Below, piece after piece: positions 6,580 through 39,246 of a DNA stretch of 49,764 nucleotides (positions are counted from its first letter, which is position 1; each line of letters begins with the position of its first letter). The DNA is from a virus. A model generated the notes under the pieces. The model saw nothing but the letters and a program-made list of their open reading frames with translations. It had not been told where the DNA came from and searched no databases. The stretch is from IMG/VR virus record IMGVR_UViG_3300046000_011647, positions 1 to 49,764 of that record. The stretch is one strand, 5' to 3'. The position numbers and the translations under genes were made by a program.

Positions 6580-7533
6580 TTAGGCGTTTGCCATTTCGAT
6601 GGCAGTCTCTAGCGCCCGGGTCTTCATGTTACGACCATTGCCGTACCAAGCAGAGGTTAGACGAGAGTCTTGAGTGCGACCCATCAGATGATCAGCAGTA
6701 TAGGTCACCGTATTGAAGAGCTGCCAGAAGGATCCACGAGCAAAGTCTGCACCGGGCTGAGTATCGACCACGGACAGAGCAACCTTAGCATTCTTGCTAA
6801 GTTCCTTCTTAGCATCCGGACCACCAGCAACAGGGAACACACGCTTGAAGTAGTCGACCATATTCTCGTTGGTGTAGCGCTTGGTGCCGAGGAAAGCAGC
6901 CATTTCCTTATACTTAGCAAGCTTCTCTTGAGCAATACCAAGCATGAGCTTTACGTTGTCACCGTTGAACTCACGGCGATGACTAATCTTGACAAAGCGC
7001 TCGACCTTGGTGTTAAGAGAAAGCGTTAGGGTGTTATTGCAGACCACACGAATCGGAGTGAACCGAACGTCAGTGGAGAAGCCATACTTGTGGAAGTTGG
7101 TGAAGTGCAGATACGATTCGACCTCATCACCACCGAACAGGTCAAAGCCGTCCTTGACCTTAGCCAGAGCCCAGACAATCTGACCATCAGCCAGAGAGCC
7201 AGCGGTGTGCATTTCCATGTCACCCTCGGCGATGAAGTCGTTGAAGAATTCAAACGCTTCAGCGTTCTGCACCGGATTCCAGTCGTTCGACACGATGTCT
7301 AGAATCTTGTTGTCACTCTTACGGACAAGAGCCGAACGACCCACGTCGATGTTCTTACCACCGACCTTAGCATAGGCCTTGATCTTCTCAACTTCCCAGT
7401 TGATACCAGCAGCCTCAAGCATCTGATCTGGAGTAAGATCAGCAGGAACCTCACGGCCCAGACCATGCCACGGGGTTTCACCCACATATGCCATCTGAGC
7501 CTTGCCGTCAACCATTTCAATGTTGTGAGCCAT
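6580..7533 (-). CDS. DUF932 phage/plasmid-type protein
   Basis: The 317-residue product has the DUF932 signature: AYVGETPWHGLGREVP near residue 15, a KIKAYAKV...RSALVRKSDNKIL segment, VQNAEAFEFFNDF, ALAKVKDGFDL, and RVVCNNTLTLSL with a C-terminal helical part. DUF932 proteins are common in phages and plasmids; the biochemical role is unsettled. It has its own promoter (7566-7593) and an AT-rich 5' leader, and its sequence is noticeably GC-richer than the replication genes. Confidence 0.85.
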   Translation of the reverse strand: MAHNIEMVDGKAQMAYVGETPWHGLGREVPADLTPDQMLEAAGINWEVEKIKAYAKVGGKNIDVGRSALVRKSDNKILDIVSNDWNPVQNAEAFEFFNDFIAEGDMEMHTAGSLADGQIVWALAKVKDGFDLFGGDEVESYLHFTNFHKYGFSTDVRFTPIRVVCNNTLTLSLNTKVERFVKISHRREFNGDNVKLMLGIAQEKLAKYKEMAAFLGTKRYTNENMVDYFKRVFPVAGGPDAKKELSKNAKVALSVVDTQPGADFARGSFWQLFNTVTYTADHLMGRTQDSRLTSAWYGNGRNMKTRALETAIEMANA

Positions 7534-7565
7534 TTTTAAGTCTCCGTGTTTGTTTTGATAGTAGG

Positions 7566-7593
7566 ATTATATCTTAACTAGGTTTAAAGTCAA
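7566..7593 (-). promoter_or_regulatory. Sigma70-like promoter of the DUF932 gene
   Basis: TTGACT (7588-7593) and TATAAT (7566-7571) with a 16-base spacer on the minus strand. The -35 overlaps the TGA of the upstream small gene (7590), a packing also seen at 9635. Confidence 0.7.
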
Positions 7594-7766
7594 CCACTTT
7601 TTTCGGTTTTGAAGCCAGTGATAGGAGAGAATCCAGCAAGGACTTCACCCTTCTCGGTCATCAGCAGTGCCTCAAGGCATGCCCTCTCCATATAAGTCAG
7701 AGCTTGTTCCTTATTGGAAAAGTCCTTAGTATAACCAAAGTTGGTAAAACTAACCAGATACATCAT
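7590..7766 (-). CDS. Small hypothetical protein, 58 aa
   Basis: ATG 7766 (or 7763) to TGA 7590 encodes 58 residues: MMYLVSFTNFGYTKDFSNKE then a helix with ALTYMERACLEALLMTEKG and a terminal VLAGFSPITGF. It overlaps the stop of the repeat mini-gene by ATGA, so the two are probably translationally coupled and share promoter 7969-7996. No family recognised. Confidence 0.5.
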   Translation of the reverse strand: MMYLVSFTNFGYTKDFSNKEQALTYMERACLEALLMTEKGEVLAGFSPITGFKTEKSG

Positions 7767-7936
7767 TCTATCTCCATCAAGACTTGATAACAGATTTCAT
7801 TCCAGACTTGATTATAGACTTGATTATAGACTTGATCAAAGATTTGATCCTGGACTTGATTCAAGGCTTGATTATAAACTTTTTTATCCACTTGACCCAT
7901 GACTGAACCCAAGACTTGATTCTTAACTTTTTCCAT
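7763..7936 (-). CDS. Tetrapeptide-repeat mini-protein, third locus
   Basis: ATG 7936 to TGA 7763 encodes 57 residues. The N-terminus is a decayed repeat (KNQVLGSVMGQVDKKV) and the middle is canonical (NQVQDQIFDQVYNQVYNQV). The gene has its own strong promoter and sits at the head of a two-gene unit. It is separate from the 3.6-5.1 kb arrays, so the repeat has dispersed within the genome. Confidence 0.5.
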   Translation of the reverse strand: MEKVKNQVLGSVMGQVDKKVYNQALNQVQDQIFDQVYNQVYNQVWNEICYQVLMEIE

Positions 7937-7968
7937 AACCTTATACCATCATTATTTGGTCACTAACC

Positions 7969-7996
7969 ATTATACCAGGTTATGGAAAAAAGTCAA
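7969..7996 (-). promoter_or_regulatory. Sigma70-like promoter flanked by inverted repeat
   Basis: TTGACT (7991-7996) and TATAAT (7969-7974) are 16 bases apart on the minus strand. A 10-bp inverted repeat, TTCCATAACC (7931-7940) and GGTTATGGAA (7979-7988), brackets the -10 and predicted start, and TTATACCA is directly repeated at 7941 and 7970, so a repressor operator is possible. Confidence 0.65.
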
Positions 7997-8001
7997 TAGG
8001 C

Positions 8002-8175
8002 TTATGCACCGACAAAGCGGGAAATCACCGAGACTTCCTCTGAGGTCAGCTGAGCCTCAAACGGCCCTTGGTGCGCCAGACGGTCGGCGGCCCGGGCAAC
8101 CTCATTAGAGGCCACATCGTCCTTGGTGGTCTTGGCGAAGGCGTACATACGGGACAGAACGGTCGAGATATCCAT
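8002..8175 (-). CDS. Small early protein, 57 aa
   Basis: The start is ATG 8175 (MDISTVLSRMYAFAK...), preceded by AAGGAG and by its own promoter; longer upstream frames run through that promoter and are not real. The 57-residue product is helical with an acidic LTSEEVSVISRFVGA end. Function unknown; the single-gene promoter and GC-rich codon usage match the other early genes around it. Confidence 0.65.
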   Translation of the reverse strand: MDISTVLSRMYAFAKTTKDDVASNEVARAADRLAHQGPFEAQLTSEEVSVISRFVGA

Positions 8176-8202
8176 GTTGGTAGTCTCCTTGTTATAACTT
8201 AA

Positions 8203-8231
8203 CTTATATCTTAATCTGGAATTAAAGTCAA
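8203..8231 (-). promoter_or_regulatory. Early promoter, TTGACTTTAAT family
   Basis: TTGACT (8226-8231), 17-base spacer, TATAAG (8203-8208). Nearly identical over about 30 bases to the promoter at 8498-8526, including the spacer TTAAT...CAGATTAAGA, so the spacer may also be recognised. Confidence 0.8.
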
Positions 8232-8236
8232 CCCAC

Positions 8237-8461
8237 TCAGTCGAGATAGGACGGCTTTTCCGTCCGGCTCCACTTCTTATGCTTCTTGCGGCCGGGAGCA
8301 CCGTCGTAGTACCCATCGGTGCCGAACGATGTGGAGCCGTACTCCTCAAGATTGGTCTTCCGCAGATCGCCCTTGCGGTACTTGTCACGGGAGGTGTGGT
8401 AGCGCCCATCGGATGCCATGGTCACGTTGGTCTTGGCCTTGTCGCCGGAAAATTCGGTCAT
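8237..8461 (-). CDS. Small basic early protein, 74 aa
   Basis: The start is ATG 8461 (MTEFSGDKAKTNVTMASDGR), just downstream of a strong promoter; longer frames cross the promoter. The 74 residues are hydrophilic and basic, with Lys/Arg clusters (GRKKHKKWSR near the C-terminus) and Gly/Tyr-rich GTDGYYDGAPG, so it is likely disordered and may bind nucleic acid. Unknown function. Confidence 0.6.
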   Translation of the reverse strand: MTEFSGDKAKTNVTMASDGRYHTSRDKYRKGDLRKTNLEEYGSTSFGTDGYYDGAPGRKKHKKWSRTEKPSYLD

Positions 8462-8497
8462 TGTAGGTCTTTCGTTGGTGTTGTTGGTATGACTTAA

Positions 8498-8526
8498 CTT
8501 ATATCTTAATCTGAGATTAAAGTCAA
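8498..8526 (-). promoter_or_regulatory. Early promoter, TTGACTTTAAT family
   Basis: TTGACT (8521-8526), 17-base spacer, TATAAG (8498-8503) on the minus strand, with the same extended sequence as 8203-8231. Confidence 0.8.
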
Positions 8527-8534
8527 TAGGTAAT

Positions 8535-8780
8535 TTAGCGAGGGTTGTAAATTTTGTCAAAAAGATCTTTGCCGAGAGCTTTTTTAGCATCACGCTTGGT
8601 ATAGATATCAATCTCAGTTACATCATGACCAAGATCTTTAAGCACACGAATGGCGTTGATTCTAAAGTAACTGCTATAAACTTTGGGTTCTTTACCATCG
8701 GCCATAACCACATACACTTTATAGTCAAGGTTACCATGTGAGAAAGATTTGTTTCTGAGGTCATAGACCGTGATGGTCAT
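8535..8780 (-). CDS. Small early protein, 81 aa (left divergent gene)
   Basis: The chosen start is ATG 8780 (MTITVYDLRNKS), preceded by AAGGA; the in-frame ATG at 8798 lies at the predicted transcription start. The 81-residue product looks alpha/beta: VYDLRNK, YKVYVVMADGKEPKVYSSYF, then INAIRVLKDLGHDVTEIDIYT. Its promoter and leader mirror those of the + strand gene at 9278. Function unknown. Confidence 0.65.
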   Translation of the reverse strand: MTITVYDLRNKSFSHGNLDYKVYVVMADGKEPKVYSSYFRINAIRVLKDLGHDVTEIDIYTKRDAKKALGKDLFDKIYNPR

Positions 8781-8804
8781 GTTCGTTTCCTTCATCATAG
8801 TCTC

Positions 8805-8833
8805 TTTATAACCCCATATGAGATAAAAGTAAA
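8805..8833 (-). promoter_or_regulatory. Left divergent promoter
   Basis: TTTACT (8828-8833), 17-base spacer, TATAAA (8805-8810), followed by AGAGACTATGATGAA. The + strand promoter at 9225-9253 has the same core and leader, so one is a copy of the other. Confidence 0.75.
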
Positions 8834-8918
8834 CCCCTGCTTTGTCAATGGGTTAGGCTTAAGTCATTGATATGATTGAGGAAAAAAATTGCATTTTTTT
8901 GAAAAAAGTTTGAGTCCT

Positions 8919-9048
8919 AATGATATCAATGGGTTAGGATGGCAACCGTGCTCTAGTCGTGCTAGGTGGTCCTAGCGGTATGATAACCCATCCACAGTGG
9001 CTTAGACTGCCGAGAACCGTCGTGAGCACCTAACCCATTGATATCATT
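8919..9048. other. Inverted-repeat element A (20-bp arms)
   Basis: AATGATATCAATGGGTTAGG (8919-8938) is the exact reverse complement of 9029-9048, enclosing 90 bases. Inside are a perfect 6-bp hairpin GCTAGG-TGGT-CCTAGC (8961-8976), a CAGT/ACTG stem (8995-9009) and a GGATGG/CCATCC pairing (8937-8942 with 8988-8993). No coding frame was found. It could be a structured RNA, a replication origin cruciform or a regulatory site. Confidence 0.75.
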
Positions 9049-33763: not shown

Positions 33764-33871
33764 TTATTTACCTTTTAAGCATCTCTGGCGGCATATAAAT
33801 GTGCACTTGAGATAATTTAATATTTTACGAACCATTTTTTTCACCGGATCTACCACTTTAAACTTTACCAT
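33764..33871 (-). CDS. Possible 35-residue basic peptide
   Basis: ATG 33871 to TAA 33764 encodes MVKFKVVDPVKKMVRKILNY and a Cys-rich basic end. It overlaps the upstream gene by seven bases and abuts the Dps start (TAATATG). Plausible by packing only. Confidence 0.35.
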   Translation of the reverse strand: MVKFKVVDPVKKMVRKILNYLKCTFICRQRCLKGK

Positions 33872-34455
33872 GCTCTGCAGCTCCAATATCTTGCTTTTGT
33901 GCGAGGTCCTGGATTATCACAGTTGTGACGTGCTCTAAAACTTTTTCTACGAGCTGGAATATTCTTTTTAATTGTCATATTAGGATCACCAAAATTGACC
34001 TTAATGGTATTTCCCTTTTCATTCTTCACATAAACTTTGGATTTCTTGACGTCACCCTTCATAGGCTTACCAATAGGAACCGAGCGACCTTGATATTCAG
34101 CTTCAGTAACAGGTGGTTGATGTTTACCACATGTGCAATTTCCATTGCATTCATAAAGAGCTTCTTCAACAACCTTTTTGAGAATACGAAGAGTCTTGGA
34201 AGGATTCTTAGATTGACCTGGTGTTTCGTCTTTATAGGTCTTTACCAATTCATTAGAAGCATCAAATCTAGATGCTGGTTTTCTTGGGTCATTAGAATGC
34301 TTTTCTGCATCTTCTTTCACTTGTGAAGCTTTAAGATCAGCAGCAGTAGGTGCACCCTTTTCACCTGGCTTACGCATGCGTTCACCAGAACCAGACGCTA
34401 TTCTTTTTCTCTTGGCATGGATATTATCCCAGAGTCCTCTTTTTTCGTCTAACAT
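33865..34455 (-). CDS. DUF6321-like late-region protein
   Basis: From ATG 34455 (GGAGATTTCT upstream) the product has LWDNIHAKRKRIASGSGERM, then a linker, a CNGNCTCG cluster, and a C-terminal YQGRSVPIGKPMKGDVKKSK, NFGDPNMTIKKNIPARRKSF and HNCDNPGPRTKARYWSCRAW domain. The C-terminal domain matches DUF6321, as I recall it from T4-like phages; Cys/His positions suggest zinc binding. A late promoter lies 21 bases upstream. Confidence 0.7.
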   Translation of the reverse strand: MLDEKRGLWDNIHAKRKRIASGSGERMRKPGEKGAPTAADLKASQVKEDAEKHSNDPRKPASRFDASNELVKTYKDETPGQSKNPSKTLRILKKVVEEALYECNGNCTCGKHQPPVTEAEYQGRSVPIGKPMKGDVKKSKVYVKNEKGNTIKVNFGDPNMTIKKNIPARRKSFRARHNCDNPGPRTKARYWSCRAW

Positions 34456-34475
34456 AGAAATCTCCAATTTTTTTA

Positions 34476-34483
34476 TATTTATA
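34476..34483 (-). promoter_or_regulatory. T4-type late promoter of 34455 gene
   Basis: Perfect TATAAATA on the minus strand with an AT-rich flank, 21 bases before ATG 34455. Confidence 0.75.
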
Positions 34484-34490
34484 AAAAAAG

Positions 34491-35804
34491 TTATCTCGTA
34501 ATTTCTTCCCAGTCCATAGAAGCAAGTGCATTGACATTATTAACTGATGCTGCCATAGCAATTGTAATTGGTTCTGGAACACCTGTTAAACCATTTCGTT
34601 GCAATTGAAACTTAAATAATGCTTCTTTTAGAACGTCAATTGTCTGCGATGCTTGGTTTGTGATGCCAATATATCCTTGTGCTAATACAGTCCCACCACT
34701 TAAACCTGTTGCTGTCATATCATATTCAACGGAACTATCAGAACTACCTGGGCTCCAAGATGGTGAAGTTAATGTTGCTCCTCTATAAACTCTCCAAGCA
34801 ACGGAACATGGATTGGAATTGATACCCAGAATAGAAAGTGCCGTCAAAATAGCAATTGCTTCAAGACGATCAGATTTCAACCGAATAGAAACAACAGGAT
34901 AATAAGTACCAGCTGTTGTTAATGCTTTAGGTGTTTGAACTGGAGTCCCAACCGCCCACTGTTCACCACGGAGTTCATAACCACCTTCACTAATAACGGT
35001 TGAACACACTTGCTTCATAGTGCTTGAAGATGCTGTTGTTCCGGTATTTTTAATCTCATAACGCAACGGAAGTGATGCTGTTGTCATATATGTTGACGTA
35101 ACTTTATTTGCGTGATGAAATGAATGACAGTGAACCATTTTACCATCAATTACAAATCCACATCTAACGGTCCCTAAACCTAACCATTCAATATCAATGA
35201 ATAGAATTTGTGCTTTTGAAATGTCAAGAGTAATCTGAGAAGGGCTTGAGTCAACGGAACCTAGAAGAGTATCTATATTCCAATCAGCTTGAGCAACACG
35301 TGTTTCATTTACTGCACCACTAATATATGATCTTTCAACAAAATTAAGAGTTGTTCCATCAAGTTCAACGTAAATGCCATTTTGTGCGCCAAAATAACCA
35401 ACACGCTGGCGGAGATTTGCTTTAGCTGCATTGAATACAAATGTACTCATTATCTGCAAAGACTTACCAGGTTGATAAGAAAACACCTTTGTTGTTTCAC
35501 GCACAATCTCGGCATTTGTTGTAGTGGGTAAATTTAGTTCAATTAAACCGGCATTTGCATTATGTGCATATGTTGAACCTGCTGTATTAGAAGTGGACCA
35601 AAGACCATTATCTTTATAACGATGGGAGGAATCAAACAATGTCAAGGGTAGCGACATTCTTGCTCTACCAAAAGCATCAACCGCAGTACCAGAAGGATTT
35701 GCGGGACCGACTAGACTACCGTACTGATCGGCAAGCATTACTACTTCAAAGATAGTTTTACCATCAGCAAGATATTCGTGTCTATCTTTACGAAACTGTG
35801 CCAT
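34491..35804 (-). CDS. Virion structural protein, 437 aa
   Basis: The 437-residue Ser/Thr/Ala-rich protein contains DAFGRARMSLPLTLFDSSHR near the N-terminus, the recurrent opening of a T4-like phage structural protein, then beta-rich sequence with VGYFGAQNGIYVELDGT and SPSQITLDISKAQILFIDIE. Composition and context fit a head decoration, neck or fiber protein; exact location in the virion is not known. Confidence 0.7.
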   Translation of the reverse strand: MAQFRKDRHEYLADGKTIFEVVMLADQYGSLVGPANPSGTAVDAFGRARMSLPLTLFDSSHRYKDNGLWSTSNTAGSTYAHNANAGLIELNLPTTTNAEIVRETTKVFSYQPGKSLQIMSTFVFNAAKANLRQRVGYFGAQNGIYVELDGTTLNFVERSYISGAVNETRVAQADWNIDTLLGSVDSSPSQITLDISKAQILFIDIEWLGLGTVRCGFVIDGKMVHCHSFHHANKVTSTYMTTASLPLRYEIKNTGTTASSSTMKQVCSTVISEGGYELRGEQWAVGTPVQTPKALTTAGTYYPVVSIRLKSDRLEAIAILTALSILGINSNPCSVAWRVYRGATLTSPSWSPGSSDSSVEYDMTATGLSGGTVLAQGYIGITNQASQTIDVLKEALFKFQLQRNGLTGVPEPITIAMAASVNNVNALASMDWEEITR

Positions 35805-35822: not shown

Positions 35823-37874
35823 TTATTTTCTATGCAAGCTTCCGTGCCAAAGCTTAACAAACTTTTTTAAATTGTCATTGGATGAATCAGCAGTAACTTC
35901 TTCTTTAATATCTTTTGCTTTTATAATTTTTGGAGCTTTATTGATATTTTTTACTTTTGTAGCAGTCTTGGTTTCTTCTCTTCGCTTCTGTTCCACCTTA
36001 GCTCTGTGTCCAATTTCATCATTTCTCTTGGCATATCTAGCAAGAGAAATACCAGAAGTTTGAGGTCCAATTTCAATATGCATTGCTTTACGAACTTCAT
36101 CATAAAGTTCCTTAGCATGTTCTGGGTGCACATGACTAGGTATTCCCTTTTTGAACTCAGAGAAATTTCTACCCATAGCATGACCACGCATTTTTGATGC
36201 CGACATACCAGATACACCTTCGGCATCAGGATCTCTTTCACCAGCGGAAACCACGTCTATTCTTTTGAAGTTGAAGTCTTTGCCTGGTCCATTATACTTA
36301 TCCAGAATCTTTTTATATTCATCAACTCTATCAGATCCACCCACCATAATGAGATGGTCTACACCTTGCTTATGAAGCTTTTTTGCATGATGGATAAATG
36401 TTGGTGCTTCATCAGATGCTGCTTCAATATTGGTATTTGGAAAGAATCTTTTGGCGTGCTTTATCTTTTGTTCAGCTGATAGTGGATTCTTTTCCGGATC
36501 TTGTGAGTGCGATAATACTACAGTGTGCTTTGCTTTATTAGCAGAAGCCAATTCTTTCACCTTATCAACTAAAGCACCGTGACCTATTGTTGGTGGATTC
36601 ATTCTACCAAATGCCAATACATGTGGGTTCTTAGTATCCCTTTCGTTTGGCTTTACAGCATCCGGTTCTGCTGGTGTATCTTCACCACGACCTCTATTAT
36701 TAGCAAAATTCAAGCGACTAAATTCTGCTCTATCAACTAGTTTTGTAGGTCTACCATTACGGATTGAAACAAACCCTTCTGGTTTTACTTTTTTACCACC
36801 AACTGTGTGCTCAAATTCCGTAGGATTACCTAAAGCTGAAACCAAAGTATCCTTAGCTTTCTGTAAATGATGATGTATCGCAAACGCTCGGGAGTAGTCT
36901 TGCTTGTTGCTATTAAGGTCATTAATAAGCTCATCATAAACAGAAGCCTTCTTTTGCTTTGCAGCTTCGGTTTTGACTTTTGCAACTTCTTTATCCCTTT
37001 TACTTTCAAGTGATGACTTATAATCATCTACTGATGGAGTGGTTCCATCTCGAACAGTTTGATTTATATAAGGTTTAATATAAGCATCATGCTTACCTAA
37101 GTTCTTTAAAGTATCGGAAGATGTATTTCTAAAATTTTCAGTGGCGGCTTCAATATGTTTTTTGTATATACTTTGCTGAATAGGTGAATAGACCGATTTA
37201 GAAGTATCATTAATTTCTGGATTGACTAAATTTACATCTGGATCTTGTTTAAATTTAGAATGATCCACATCAAATCCAGCTTTCATATCAGTCAGATTTT
37301 TACCATTGTATTTGGTATGAACAACAAAGCCCATTTCTGATGCATTCATTTTTCTGCCCATACCTGAATCTTTTGGCGCAGAATACGTAATTGTATTTGG
37401 TGCAAACTTATACTTACCATCCTCATCTTCAAGATCATTTTTATCATAAAGGAAATCACCCTGATATACACCAGTAGGATTCCCTTTAGTATCAGTAGGC
37501 ATAATCTTAGGTAAGTGTTTTAGTGCTATTTTAAGTTTCTGGGCAAGCCCTGGCGCATGCCCATGATTCTTGTCAATATCTGCTTCTGTATAGTTAATCT
37601 TTGGATTCACATTGAATACAGATTTTGAACCAACAAAAAACTTTCCGTTCTCTGGATTAATCCCAAATGCTACGGATGGGCTGCCATCGTATTTTGTGGT
37701 TACTTTTGATTTAGACTTACCACCAGTAAGAAAATTATGAAGATCATCAAGATTATCAGCAGCATGTACTAATCCTTCTTCACCACCATGAATGATATGA
37801 TCCTCAGCATGCTCTAAGTGTTTGAGCTTATCAACGTCTAGTGATTCTATTAGAAAGTTTGAAAATTGAATCAT
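35823..37874 (-). CDS. Two-domain ligase-like plus nucleotidylyltransferase protein (DUF6267-like)
   Basis: This 683-residue protein combines two nucleotidyl-transfer modules. The N-terminal module has TTKYDGSPSVAFG near residue 60 (motif I, Lys in KxDG), YQGDFLYDK, then EGFVSIRNG and KLVDRAEF (motif IV and V-like) around 370-385, the order seen in ATP-dependent ligases. The C-terminal module has LAFGRMNPPTIGHG near 424-437 (xGH of nucleotidylyltransferases), HLIMVGGSDRVDEY, and MSASKMRGHAM (STKIR-like). The layout matches DUF6267 proteins of T4-like cyanophages, where it lies among structural genes. Substrates unknown. Confidence 0.75.
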   Translation of the reverse strand: MIQFSNFLIESLDVDKLKHLEHAEDHIIHGGEEGLVHAADNLDDLHNFLTGGKSKSKVTTKYDGSPSVAFGINPENGKFFVGSKSVFNVNPKINYTEADIDKNHGHAPGLAQKLKIALKHLPKIMPTDTKGNPTGVYQGDFLYDKNDLEDEDGKYKFAPNTITYSAPKDSGMGRKMNASEMGFVVHTKYNGKNLTDMKAGFDVDHSKFKQDPDVNLVNPEINDTSKSVYSPIQQSIYKKHIEAATENFRNTSSDTLKNLGKHDAYIKPYINQTVRDGTTPSVDDYKSSLESKRDKEVAKVKTEAAKQKKASVYDELINDLNSNKQDYSRAFAIHHHLQKAKDTLVSALGNPTEFEHTVGGKKVKPEGFVSIRNGRPTKLVDRAEFSRLNFANNRGRGEDTPAEPDAVKPNERDTKNPHVLAFGRMNPPTIGHGALVDKVKELASANKAKHTVVLSHSQDPEKNPLSAEQKIKHAKRFFPNTNIEAASDEAPTFIHHAKKLHKQGVDHLIMVGGSDRVDEYKKILDKYNGPGKDFNFKRIDVVSAGERDPDAEGVSGMSASKMRGHAMGRNFSEFKKGIPSHVHPEHAKELYDEVRKAMHIEIGPQTSGISLARYAKRNDEIGHRAKVEQKRREETKTATKVKNINKAPKIIKAKDIKEEVTADSSNDNLKKFVKLWHGSLHRK

Positions 37875-37886
37875 AGCTATGCTTTC

Positions 37887-38960
37887 TTATTTTAATGCTT
37901 TTATTTTAAATTTAGTGTCATTTGGATATTCCCCACCCTTACTATTTCTTATTTCTATTAAGTATTCTGCATAATTATTTGAACACATAATAGTTATCTG
38001 TTTGGATGAAGCAGTAGGATATTTAATATCCGTTACTTTAATATTGGAAGTAAGATTATCTAGTTTTTTTCTATCCAACCAAAATATTTTCCAACCACCA
38101 GATGTTTTTCTTACATAGAAATAATTCATACCCCATGCACGTTCAAATATAGCTTTTATCTTTGATGAATTTATTTTAGCTATAGGTATTGATTTTCTAA
38201 CAATTTTCTTTTTGGCTCTAAGATCATAACCTTCTTGAATTAAATTTAAATTAGCACCGAATGCATTAAGAAACTCAGCACCAGCAGATTTAGGTGCTAA
38301 ATTACCATTATTATCCATCAAACTAGCGGCACCAGAATATGAACTGAATGTATCACCGTTCACATCTTTAAGTGAAATATACCATTTTTCACCAATTGAA
38401 TCGGTCAAAACAATATCTCCGATTATTTCACCAAGATTTTCAATTGGTACGCCTTCTTTTTTAGTTGATCCTGTTCTTTGTTTAACATCAATAATTTCAT
38501 TTTTAGCAAATTTTGGATTTGCGGTTGTGAGTTGTTTTACCAAAGTTTTATAATCAGAACCCAAACCTTTATTTTGAAAAACACCTTGTAGATCTGATAC
38601 AACTTTCTTTTCAAAATTTTCACCTTTATTTGAACCTTTTGAAATGATAACATCAAAACTAGTCCCATCAAAATCAAAAGATACTGATGAATACTTAGAA
38701 CTATTAGATGATAATTCATTAAATTTTATATTTTTAACATCTTCTATTGAGACAGATATTAAATTCATTAAATATTTTTTATATGATTCTGATGTATCAT
38801 TATTAGAATTGATAAGTTGCATTCTATATTCACGGCCACCACGTTTATCAGATGCTGGCTTTCCTGCAGGACTTGTTCTTGCTACTTGAAAATTGTATTT
38901 TAAAGAGATAGAATCTAATACTTCACCTATCTTTTTAAAAGTATTTGAATCAACCGCCAT
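37887..38960 (-). CDS. Late-region protein, possible nuclease fold, 357 aa
   Basis: The start ATG 38960 (MAVDSNTFKKIGEVLDSISL) is supported by the late promoter just upstream; a longer upstream frame crosses that promoter. A central segment KGENFEKKVVSDL, then GDIVLTDSIGEKWYISLKD (Asp followed by SLK), is compatible with a PD-(D/E)XK-type active site, though catalytic residues are not certain. Similar proteins occur in T4-like structural regions. Confidence 0.5.
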   Translation of the reverse strand: MAVDSNTFKKIGEVLDSISLKYNFQVARTSPAGKPASDKRGGREYRMQLINSNNDTSESYKKYLMNLISVSIEDVKNIKFNELSSNSSKYSSVSFDFDGTSFDVIISKGSNKGENFEKKVVSDLQGVFQNKGLGSDYKTLVKQLTTANPKFAKNEIIDVKQRTGSTKKEGVPIENLGEIIGDIVLTDSIGEKWYISLKDVNGDTFSSYSGAASLMDNNGNLAPKSAGAEFLNAFGANLNLIQEGYDLRAKKKIVRKSIPIAKINSSKIKAIFERAWGMNYFYVRKTSGGWKIFWLDRKKLDNLTSNIKVTDIKYPTASSKQITIMCSNNYAEYLIEIRNSKGGEYPNDTKFKIKALK

Positions 38961-38991: not shown

Positions 38992-38999
38992 TATTTATA
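38992..38999 (-). promoter_or_regulatory. T4-type late promoter of the 38960 gene
   Basis: Perfect TATAAATA on the minus strand, followed by TAGAAAAC; ATG 38960 is 32 bases downstream. It sits right after a terminator that ends the replication operon. Confidence 0.75.
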
Positions 39000-39003
39000 A
39001 AAT

Positions 39004-39034
39004 AAAAAAAGAGCAGACCTTTCGATCTGCTCTT
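39004..39034 (-). terminator. Intrinsic terminator after the helicase operon
   Basis: On the minus strand AAGAGCAGATC and GGTCTGCTCT form a stem closed by GAAA, followed by a run of seven T. It separates the gp41 unit from the late gene. Confidence 0.85.
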
Positions 39035-39060: not shown

Positions 39061-39246
39061 TTATGGAGCGCTAATTCCAGCAACAAAAGCTGGCGTCCAC
39101 CCCTGGAAACCTTGTTGCCCTCGGTTCATGAGCTTACAGTACTTCCATGCTTCATTCTTATCCTTGAACTGTCGAATGTAGTTTTCACTAGCTGTTTCAA
39201 AGACATAGTACTGATCATTTGCTTGCTTAACAGTATACATTTTCAT
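39061..39246 (-). CDS. Small hypothetical protein, about 61 aa
   Basis: From ATG 39246 (or GTG 39249), overlapping the helicase stop. The protein reads MKMYTVKQANDQYYVFETAS with YIRQFKDKNEAWKYCKLMNR, an alpha/beta small domain. Not recognised. Confidence 0.5.
   Translation of the reverse strand: MKMYTVKQANDQYYVFETASENYIRQFKDKNEAWKYCKLMNRGQQGFQGWTPAFVAGISAP

Follow-up and report, generated by a model that had tools for sequence, protein, structure and literature searches.

In section 3.4.9 of PMC7824862, phage RNA repair is described as the combination of a ligase, a HAD phosphatase, a polynucleotide kinase and a nucleotidyltransferase. T4-like cyanophages also carry, downstream of gp41, the gene pair T4-GC 71 and T4-GC 190, annotated as hypothetical and as 'cytitidyltransferase' (cytidyltransferase), respectively. 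Here we analyzed a 683-amino-acid (aa) protein in which the same pair, in the same order, is joined in one chain. It is encoded in a 49,764-base virus record from a T4-like phage (IMGVR_UViG_3300046000_011647), and the window below means this whole record. Neither Pfam nor PHROGs assigns a function to its N-terminal domain D1 (T4-GC 71, DUF6267); the main text of PMC7824862 does not name DUF6267, and no mention of it was found in the literature searched. We predict a ligase fold for D1, which would give a common marine phage gene pair testable chemistry, and D2 (T4-GC 190) is predicted to be an adenylyltransferase of the HIGH superfamily. The D1-D2 pair is common in marine and freshwater phages, the relation of D1 to ligases was so far unrecognised, and the pair may form a late-made repair tool. 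It resembles the phage RNA-repair systems in that a ligase-like D1 is encoded near a HAD-like or P-loop protein, with a Pol-beta-like domain in two loci, but D1 shows no match to the Rnl1 or Rnl2 families and its constant partner is a HIGH adenylyltransferase. The cyanophage pair forms one chain in S-PM2 (LN828717), a cultured example of the fused form, and the window and its near relatives likewise have one chain instead of two genes.

The original prediction had placed two nucleotidyl-transfer sites in this single chain. All of the motifs, K61-Y-D-G, E366-G-F-V, K378-L-V-D, T-I-G-H432 and G-M-S-A-S-K-M-R563, were present and conserved. The nucleotidylyltransferase motifs were thus real, but the HIGH motif is T-I-G-H (429-432) and not 'GHG' as first given, and the second signature, given as SASK, ends in R563. 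Pfam assigned DUF6267 (PF19782) to aa 18-393 with an E-value of 9.9e-101 and CTP_transf_like (PF01467) to aa 420-526 with 27.7 bits (cut-off 21), and PHROGs matched the protein to family 455, of unknown function, and to two cytidyltransferase families (3041 and 395). The model of the full-length fusion had a predicted local distance difference test score (pLDDT) of 87.3 and a predicted template modelling score (pTM) of 0.58, and the mutual placement of D1 and D2 was not fixed by it; D1 modelled alone on 41 sequences had a pLDDT of 88.3. The original prediction would have been refuted by a predicted structure lacking either catalytic fold; both folds were supported by two confident models and by fold comparisons.

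Nine residues of D1 (K61, D63, G64, P66, D140, E366, G367, K378 and R382) were invariant in 108/108 aligned rows. These rows correspond to 104 distinct sequences, because three phages had two entries each and one contig (L001), which encodes an identical 683-aa protein (100% identity), duplicates the window; ten rows came from named phages, and identity went down to about 26%. The motif residues are therefore not a product of chance. H19, H22 and D25 near the N-terminus were also conserved. In the model, K61 lies between strands 57-60 and 67-72, D140 within strand 136-144, E366 immediately ahead of strand 368-372 and K378 within strand 375-379, which we take to be the places where the nucleotidyltransferase fold needs them. 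The motif definitions applied here (KxDG for motif I, E-G for motif IV, K for motif V) are those we assume for the covalent (lysyl-NMP) nucleotidyltransferase/ligase superfamily.

The D1 model was compared by VIA-align over the best chains of Foldseek (993 aligned). The best match was the Naegleria RNA ligase NgrRnl (Z 8.6, 190 residues, 4.0 A), followed by Trl1 (7.6), REL1 (7.5) and T4 Rnl2 (7.1); RNA ligases ranged from 8.6 to 6.5 and DNA ligases scored 6.2 and below. Among the 50 matches listed, 47 were RNA or DNA ligases and three were unrelated proteins. Four of the ligase rows were complexes of non-homologous end joining, in which we take the matching chain to be ligase IV. D1 thus shares with the ATP-dependent RNA ligases of Rnl2/Rnl5 type (T4 Rnl2, Naegleria Rnl, REL1, Trl1) the predicted nucleotidyltransferase fold and motifs I, III-like, IV and V, with the same residues in the same order. 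It differs from them by the lack of detectable sequence homology, by lacking space for an OB domain or a C-terminal ligase domain, by its own conserved H19, H22 and D25, and by a helical insertion of about 120 residues, a stretch which is shorter in Syn9 (95 residues), P-SSM7 (92) and P-SSM5 (79). A C-terminal OB domain with motif VI, as in DNA ligase or mRNA capping enzyme, was absent: separate D1 open reading frames (ORFs) stop shortly after motif V, and in the window fusion D2 comes after motif V. According to these models, D1 would belong to the lysine-dependent ligase/nucleotidyltransferase superfamily as a divergent and minimal member, one that no sequence profile links to known ligases. 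A capping enzyme was rejected for D1, which has no room for the OB domain; none was among the 50 VIA-align matches listed, a missing row being no proof. Capping-like modification, one of the roles originally offered, found no support here.

The active site of D2 was conserved as well. With the window included, H432 was present in 79/79 rows, R563 in 78/79 and R424 in 76/79, and all three were invariant in 45 D2 members. VIA-align of D2 (415-600) gave tied scores for PPAT (Z 14.3), NadM (13.6) and archaeal NMNAT (13.4), and Foldseek found NadD (E 1.4e-4). In the comparison with the M. thermoautotrophicum NMNAT, model residue 416 was aligned to chain residue 3; if the alignment continues without a gap, R424 and H432 would correspond to R11 and H19, both of which are mutated in listed archaeal NMNAT entries. 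We assume from the motif that R563 corresponds to R136 of archaeal NMNAT, which the aligned VIA-align ranges do not confirm. When the 45 members were searched against NCBIfam, with matches counted by E-value (up to 0.01) and not by the cut-offs of the models, 35 matched cyt_tran_rel, 12 NadR, 8 NadD/NMNAT, 6 and 4 archaeal NMNAT models and 2 CoaD. Any single model of flavin adenine dinucleotide (FAD) synthase matched at most 3/45, so that FAD synthesis fits D2 less well than synthesis of nicotinamide adenine dinucleotide (NAD). The window D2 itself scored under the cut-off of the sole NCBIfam model matched (27.2 vs 27.7 bits). The D2 profile also touched UPF0348 (E 0.00055), presumably a tRNA-modifying HIGH enzyme. 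By sequence, D2 appears to be nearest to the NMNATs; it shares with those of archaeal, NadR and NadM type the HIGH fold, T-x-G-H and the conserved C-terminal arginine, and differs from them by its sub-cut-off score, its tie to D1 and the usual lack of a NAMPT match described below. Since the NMNAT-type matches fit better, we rejected the glycerol-3-phosphate cytidylyltransferase considered for this protein type in PMC9146016. Two tandem copies of D2 were observed in three loci, L070 (6297-9016), L076 and L079; in L070 the active-site motif of the second copy (6956-9016) is degraded to F-G-Q-F-Q-P-P-T-A-M-H, and this copy has a long tail.

D1 and D2 occurred together in 141 of 156 loci, as one fused chain in 49, as adjacent genes (less than 60 nucleotides apart) in 44 and at a greater distance in 48. 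The remaining 15 loci run out within 2.5 kb of D1. Before counting, we dropped repeat contigs (L117, L118, L120, L121, L122, L124), the older S-PM2 record (L082), a 55-aa fragment (L196), the window itself (L083) and the T4 Rnl2 set (L084 and L087-L116); near-identical loci from separate contigs were retained in the 156 and in the 67 loci used below for promoters, and sampling was biased to close relatives (the best 80 of 117 and the best 80 of 590). Exceptions to linkage were P-SSM5 and Pseudoalteromonas phage XG4, which hold both genes far apart. In a phylogeny of 97 D1 sequences, 4 changes of the fused state were required, at least 3 of them forced by well-supported branches, which makes several events of fusion or fission probable. 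The S-PM2 gene is split in two frames in NC_006820 and open in LN828717, therefore the older 'cytitidyltransferase' annotation covers a partial gene.

At E up to 1e-5, D1 matched 465 and D2 532 of 50,697 phage records, mostly cyanophages (T4-like in the case of D1); by tblastn, the whole 683-aa protein also matched 532. In 84,980 bacterial and archaeal genomes, a pattern scan found two loci: a short fragment and a 132-kb contig on which UvsX and helicase precede the D1-D2 pair. In Vibrio phage EniLVp02 (L200:5056-5943), the gene after D1 is annotated 'DNA helicase' and matches the D2-type PHROG_395 (E 7.1e-21).

At the head of the window unit, a terminator-like site is followed by TATAAATA, which we take to be the T4 late promoter consensus. 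This octamer was present between the helicase and D1 in 54/67 loci, with 80 matches against 14.1 expected from the rest of those loci. In the dereplicated set it was present in 32/40 loci and ranked first of 56 octamers of the same composition (median 7, next 20). It stood 20-50 nucleotides ahead of an ORF start in 24/40 dereplicated loci, and the next best octamer in 11. Its count over the whole window showed no excess (7 vs 6.4 expected), so only its position is informative. This placement supports late expression of the D1-D2 unit in the lineage of the window, as the original prediction had proposed, but the timing could not be extended to the three named phages discussed below. The surroundings did not match its description of a structural cluster: the surrounding genes serve replication, and a single virion-protein family (PHROG_1645) follows directly downstream.

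D2-type proteins have been reported in virion preparations. The virion table of S-SZBM1 lists one (PMC9146016), and this 362-aa product fits a D2 gene with 37% identity to the window D2 over 193 residues. Such proteins were also reported in virion preparations of S-SCSM1 and S-CBWM1 (PMC9602691) and of S-CREM2 (PMC10665884); the S-SCSM1 gene was among our D2 sequence matches, while those of S-CBWM1 and S-CREM2 were classed as D2 type from the papers alone. The D1-D2 reading offers an explanation for these recurrent 'cytidyltransferases' in cyanophage virion preparations.

Candidate end-healing enzymes were encoded near the pair. A HAD-like protein was found in 39/156 loci and matched PHROG_415 'polynucleotide kinase' (E 6.1e-11), its HAD phosphatase matches in Pfam all being below cut-off; against the PDB it gave no informative match, and among named phages one record. 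A P-loop kinase-like protein, free or C-terminal to D2, was found in 29/156 loci, and both kinds occurred in 4. The free P-loop protein of HTVC008M matched Zeta_toxin in Pfam (3.1e-13, with AAA_33) and PHROG_505 'polynucleotide kinase' (8.5e-8), while the P-loop domain after D2 gave weak AAA matches only. It is possible that the latter is a riboside kinase of NadR type, a kind of fusion between HIGH nucleotidyltransferase and P-loop kinase that is described in PMC7824862. The HAD-like gene was present in 4/16 whole records, always by D1 (within about 1.6 kb) and with no further copy elsewhere in the 16; the four were known beforehand to hold the gene by D1, so only the absence of other copies is new. 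An Rnl2-type ligase was unmatched in 19/22 D1 records and an Rnl1-type ligase in 20/22, several of these records being fragments. No end-healing enzyme was recognised in the unit of the window itself by Pfam or PHROGs, and the S-SZBM1 neighbours included no homologues of the window's neighbours.

A repair or counter-defence module best accounts for the two conserved adenylyl-transfer sites, the late-type promoter and the neighbours that resemble end-healing enzymes. We give a probability of about 50% to the reading that D1 and D2 are a pair for repair or counter-defence that is made late and may be carried in the virion, D1 being a new ligase lineage. Here, K61 of D1 would accept adenosine monophosphate (AMP) from adenosine triphosphate (ATP) or NAD+, and E366, K378 and D140 would hold the nucleotide and the metal. 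The AMP would pass to a 5'-phosphate end, which would then be sealed, most likely in RNA. Having too few residues for an OB domain, D1 would rely on its helical insertion and on its partner to bind the substrate. D2 would be an active HIGH-family adenylyltransferase, most like NMNAT, which makes NAD+ from nicotinamide mononucleotide (NMN) and ATP. Together with the neighbouring HAD-like or P-loop kinase-like protein, the pair would repair breaks in nucleic acid by end healing and sealing, possibly in tRNAs cleaved by host defence, and D2 would meanwhile restore NAD+ or charge a related substrate. Because the partner D2 was reported from cyanophage virion preparations, the pair may also act at the onset of the next infection. 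Among the roles originally offered, repair agrees best with the neighbours, and the sequence of D2 agrees with NAD synthesis.

A number of results weigh against this reading. The top D1 score of Z 8.6 barely exceeds the warning level of the tool, and Foldseek alone gave T4 Rnl2 as best match without significance (E 0.43). Alignment of D1 with the T4 Rnl2 profile by hhalign had a probability of 0.2 over 22 columns, in which D1 P-E-G-F-V is set on T4 Rnl2 A-E-G-Y-V. None of the 41 D1 members searched matched a ligase family, PF09414 included, at E up to 0.1, DUF6267 was the sole Pfam family above chance level, and a PDB sequence search with the D1 profile gave two chance matches only. Neither a HAD-like nor a P-loop neighbour was seen in 92/156 loci, many of them short. 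Whole records with D1 all matched PHROG_395 (16/16 and 7/7, that is 23/23), but this family is loose and also matched in 10/14 cellular control genomes. Long branches meet on the D1 tree, as a warning of the tool states.

Timing, virion carriage and the NAD-related role of D2 are affected as well. The octamer was not found before D1 in HTVC008M, S-SZBM1 and S-PM2, which limits the late-promoter point to the wider lineage of the window. The authors of PMC10665884 and PMC9602691 allow that the D2-type protein is a virion contaminant. The S-SZBM1 gene that we take for D1 by order and length (number 141) is not named in the main text of PMC9146016 while D2 is in the virion table, so virion carriage of D1 is unsupported. 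NAMPT had no match in 20/22 D1 records. In the two that have it, one D2-family gene lies beside or near NAMPT and a further one by D1; because these phages keep another D2-family gene by NAMPT, the copy linked to D1 may not be a general NAD enzyme and is probably not just one of NAD salvage.

D1 could also seal DNA and not RNA, the pair closing nicks or ends in phage DNA together with the replication and recombination enzymes. The gene stands beside those of DNA polymerase, UvsX, helicase and primase, and the gene next to D1 often comes from families with motifs that look nuclease-like by eye, but Pfam does not support these motifs. We consider DNA sealing unlikely since the fold of D1 is nearer to the RNA ligases in the Z ranges above, D1 is too short for the OB domain, and the unit of the window is set apart by the terminator-like site and its own late-type octamer. 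The pair might otherwise act outside nucleic acids, as a metabolic or virion-protein-modifying pair, with D2 producing NAD+ or a different dinucleotide and D1 AMPylating a small molecule or a protein. Such a role would agree with the D2-type proteins in virion preparations (PMC9146016, PMC9602691, PMC10665884), with the S-SZBM1 D1 gene left unnamed in the main text of PMC9146016, with the virion-protein family gene 18 nucleotides downstream and with the contact of the D2 profile with UPF0348. It is doubtful, however, because the HAD-like and P-loop neighbours point to end healing and none of the family matches of D1 suggests that it acts on a protein or a metabolite.

That one or both domains are catalytically dead and serve as a binding or structural part of the virion seems very improbable. 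D2 peptides in virions (PMC9146016) and the degraded motif in the second D2 copy of L070 are consistent with such a loss, but the predicted catalytic residues are kept in 108/108 rows of D1 and in 76 to 79 of the 79 rows of D2. We attach similarly little credence to a self-recharging ligase, in which D1 would take AMP from NAD+ and release NMN, and D2 with ATP would turn NMN back into NAD+. If true, it could work in cells whose NAD+ is destroyed by defence systems, and it would explain the NMNAT-like partner in every complete case and the repeated fusion with a ligase lineage lacking the OB domain. Against this reading, the Ia domain with which bacterial LigA binds NMN would not fit into D1. 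A repair or counter-defence pair remains the reading we prefer. A defence-system protein was considered too and rejected, with no PADLOC match up to E 1.

The features of the locus are collected in the table. Besides the genes named above, the window contains those of NrdA, NrdB, exonuclease, ThyX and PhoH; its recombinase is UvsX-like and its helicase DnaB-like.

Table. Position of the D1-D2 fusion gene, its predicted domains and motifs, and adjacent features in the window.
Feature	Position	Strand	Basis
Gene directly downstream (18 nucleotides), PHROG_1645 'virion structural protein'	34491..35804	-	E 2e-140
D1-D2 fusion protein gene, 683 aa	35823..37874	-	ATG start, ORF
C-terminal tail, aa 601-683, helical, in part low-confidence	35826..36074	-	model
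D2, aa 415-600, predicted HIGH-superfamily adenylyltransferase	36075..36632	-	PF01467, Foldseek, VIA-align
C-terminal signature of D2, G556-M-S-A-S-K-M-R563	36186..36209	-	alignment
HIGH-type motif of D2, G423-R424-M-N-P-P-T-I-G-H432	36579..36608	-	alignment
D1, aa 18-393, DUF6267, predicted ligase-superfamily nucleotidyltransferase fold	36696..37823	-	Pfam, model, VIA-align
Motif V of D1, K378-L-V-D-R382	36729..36743	-	alignment
Motif IV of D1, E366-G367-F-V	36768..36779	-	alignment
Helical insertion of D1, aa about 225-350, between motifs III and IV	36825..37202	-	model helices 231-348
Motif III-like of D1, Q138-G/A139-D140	37455..37463	-	alignment and model strand 136-144
Motif I of D1, K61-Y-D63-G64; K61 = predicted AMP-accepting lysine	37683..37694	-	alignment
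Gene directly upstream, PHROG_8438, function unknown	37887..38960	-	ATG at 38960
TATAAATA, late-promoter-like octamer, 31 nucleotides before the ATG at 38960	38992..38999	-	octamer search
Terminator-like site, 11-bp stem and T tract, after the helicase unit	39009..39034	-	terminator scan

For the upstream gene, the start in the ORF list is a TTG at 39086, upstream of the terminator-like site, and the ATG at 38960 was used instead. A perfect 12/12 match to a sigma-70-type promoter (39406-39378, minus strand) lies in the 3' end of the helicase gene, also ahead of the terminator-like site. The region holds no excess of promoter-like sites (22 vs 30.3 in shuffles). A second copy of TATAAATA (34476-34483, minus strand) stands just ahead of the gene at 33865..34467.

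The slot next to D1, occupied by the gene directly upstream in the window and found at -1 or -2 in relatives, is filled by many families that BLASTP clustering keeps apart. Several of them look like PD-(D/E)XK nucleases by eye, which Pfam does not confirm. The region C-terminal to D2, a tail in the window, carries a P-loop or Pol-beta-like domain in other phages. The Pol-beta-like nucleotidyltransferase domain after D2 was observed in L128:6234-9509 and L141:6232-9066, with PF01909 reaching only E 0.023 in L128, and L128 also carries DUF5824.

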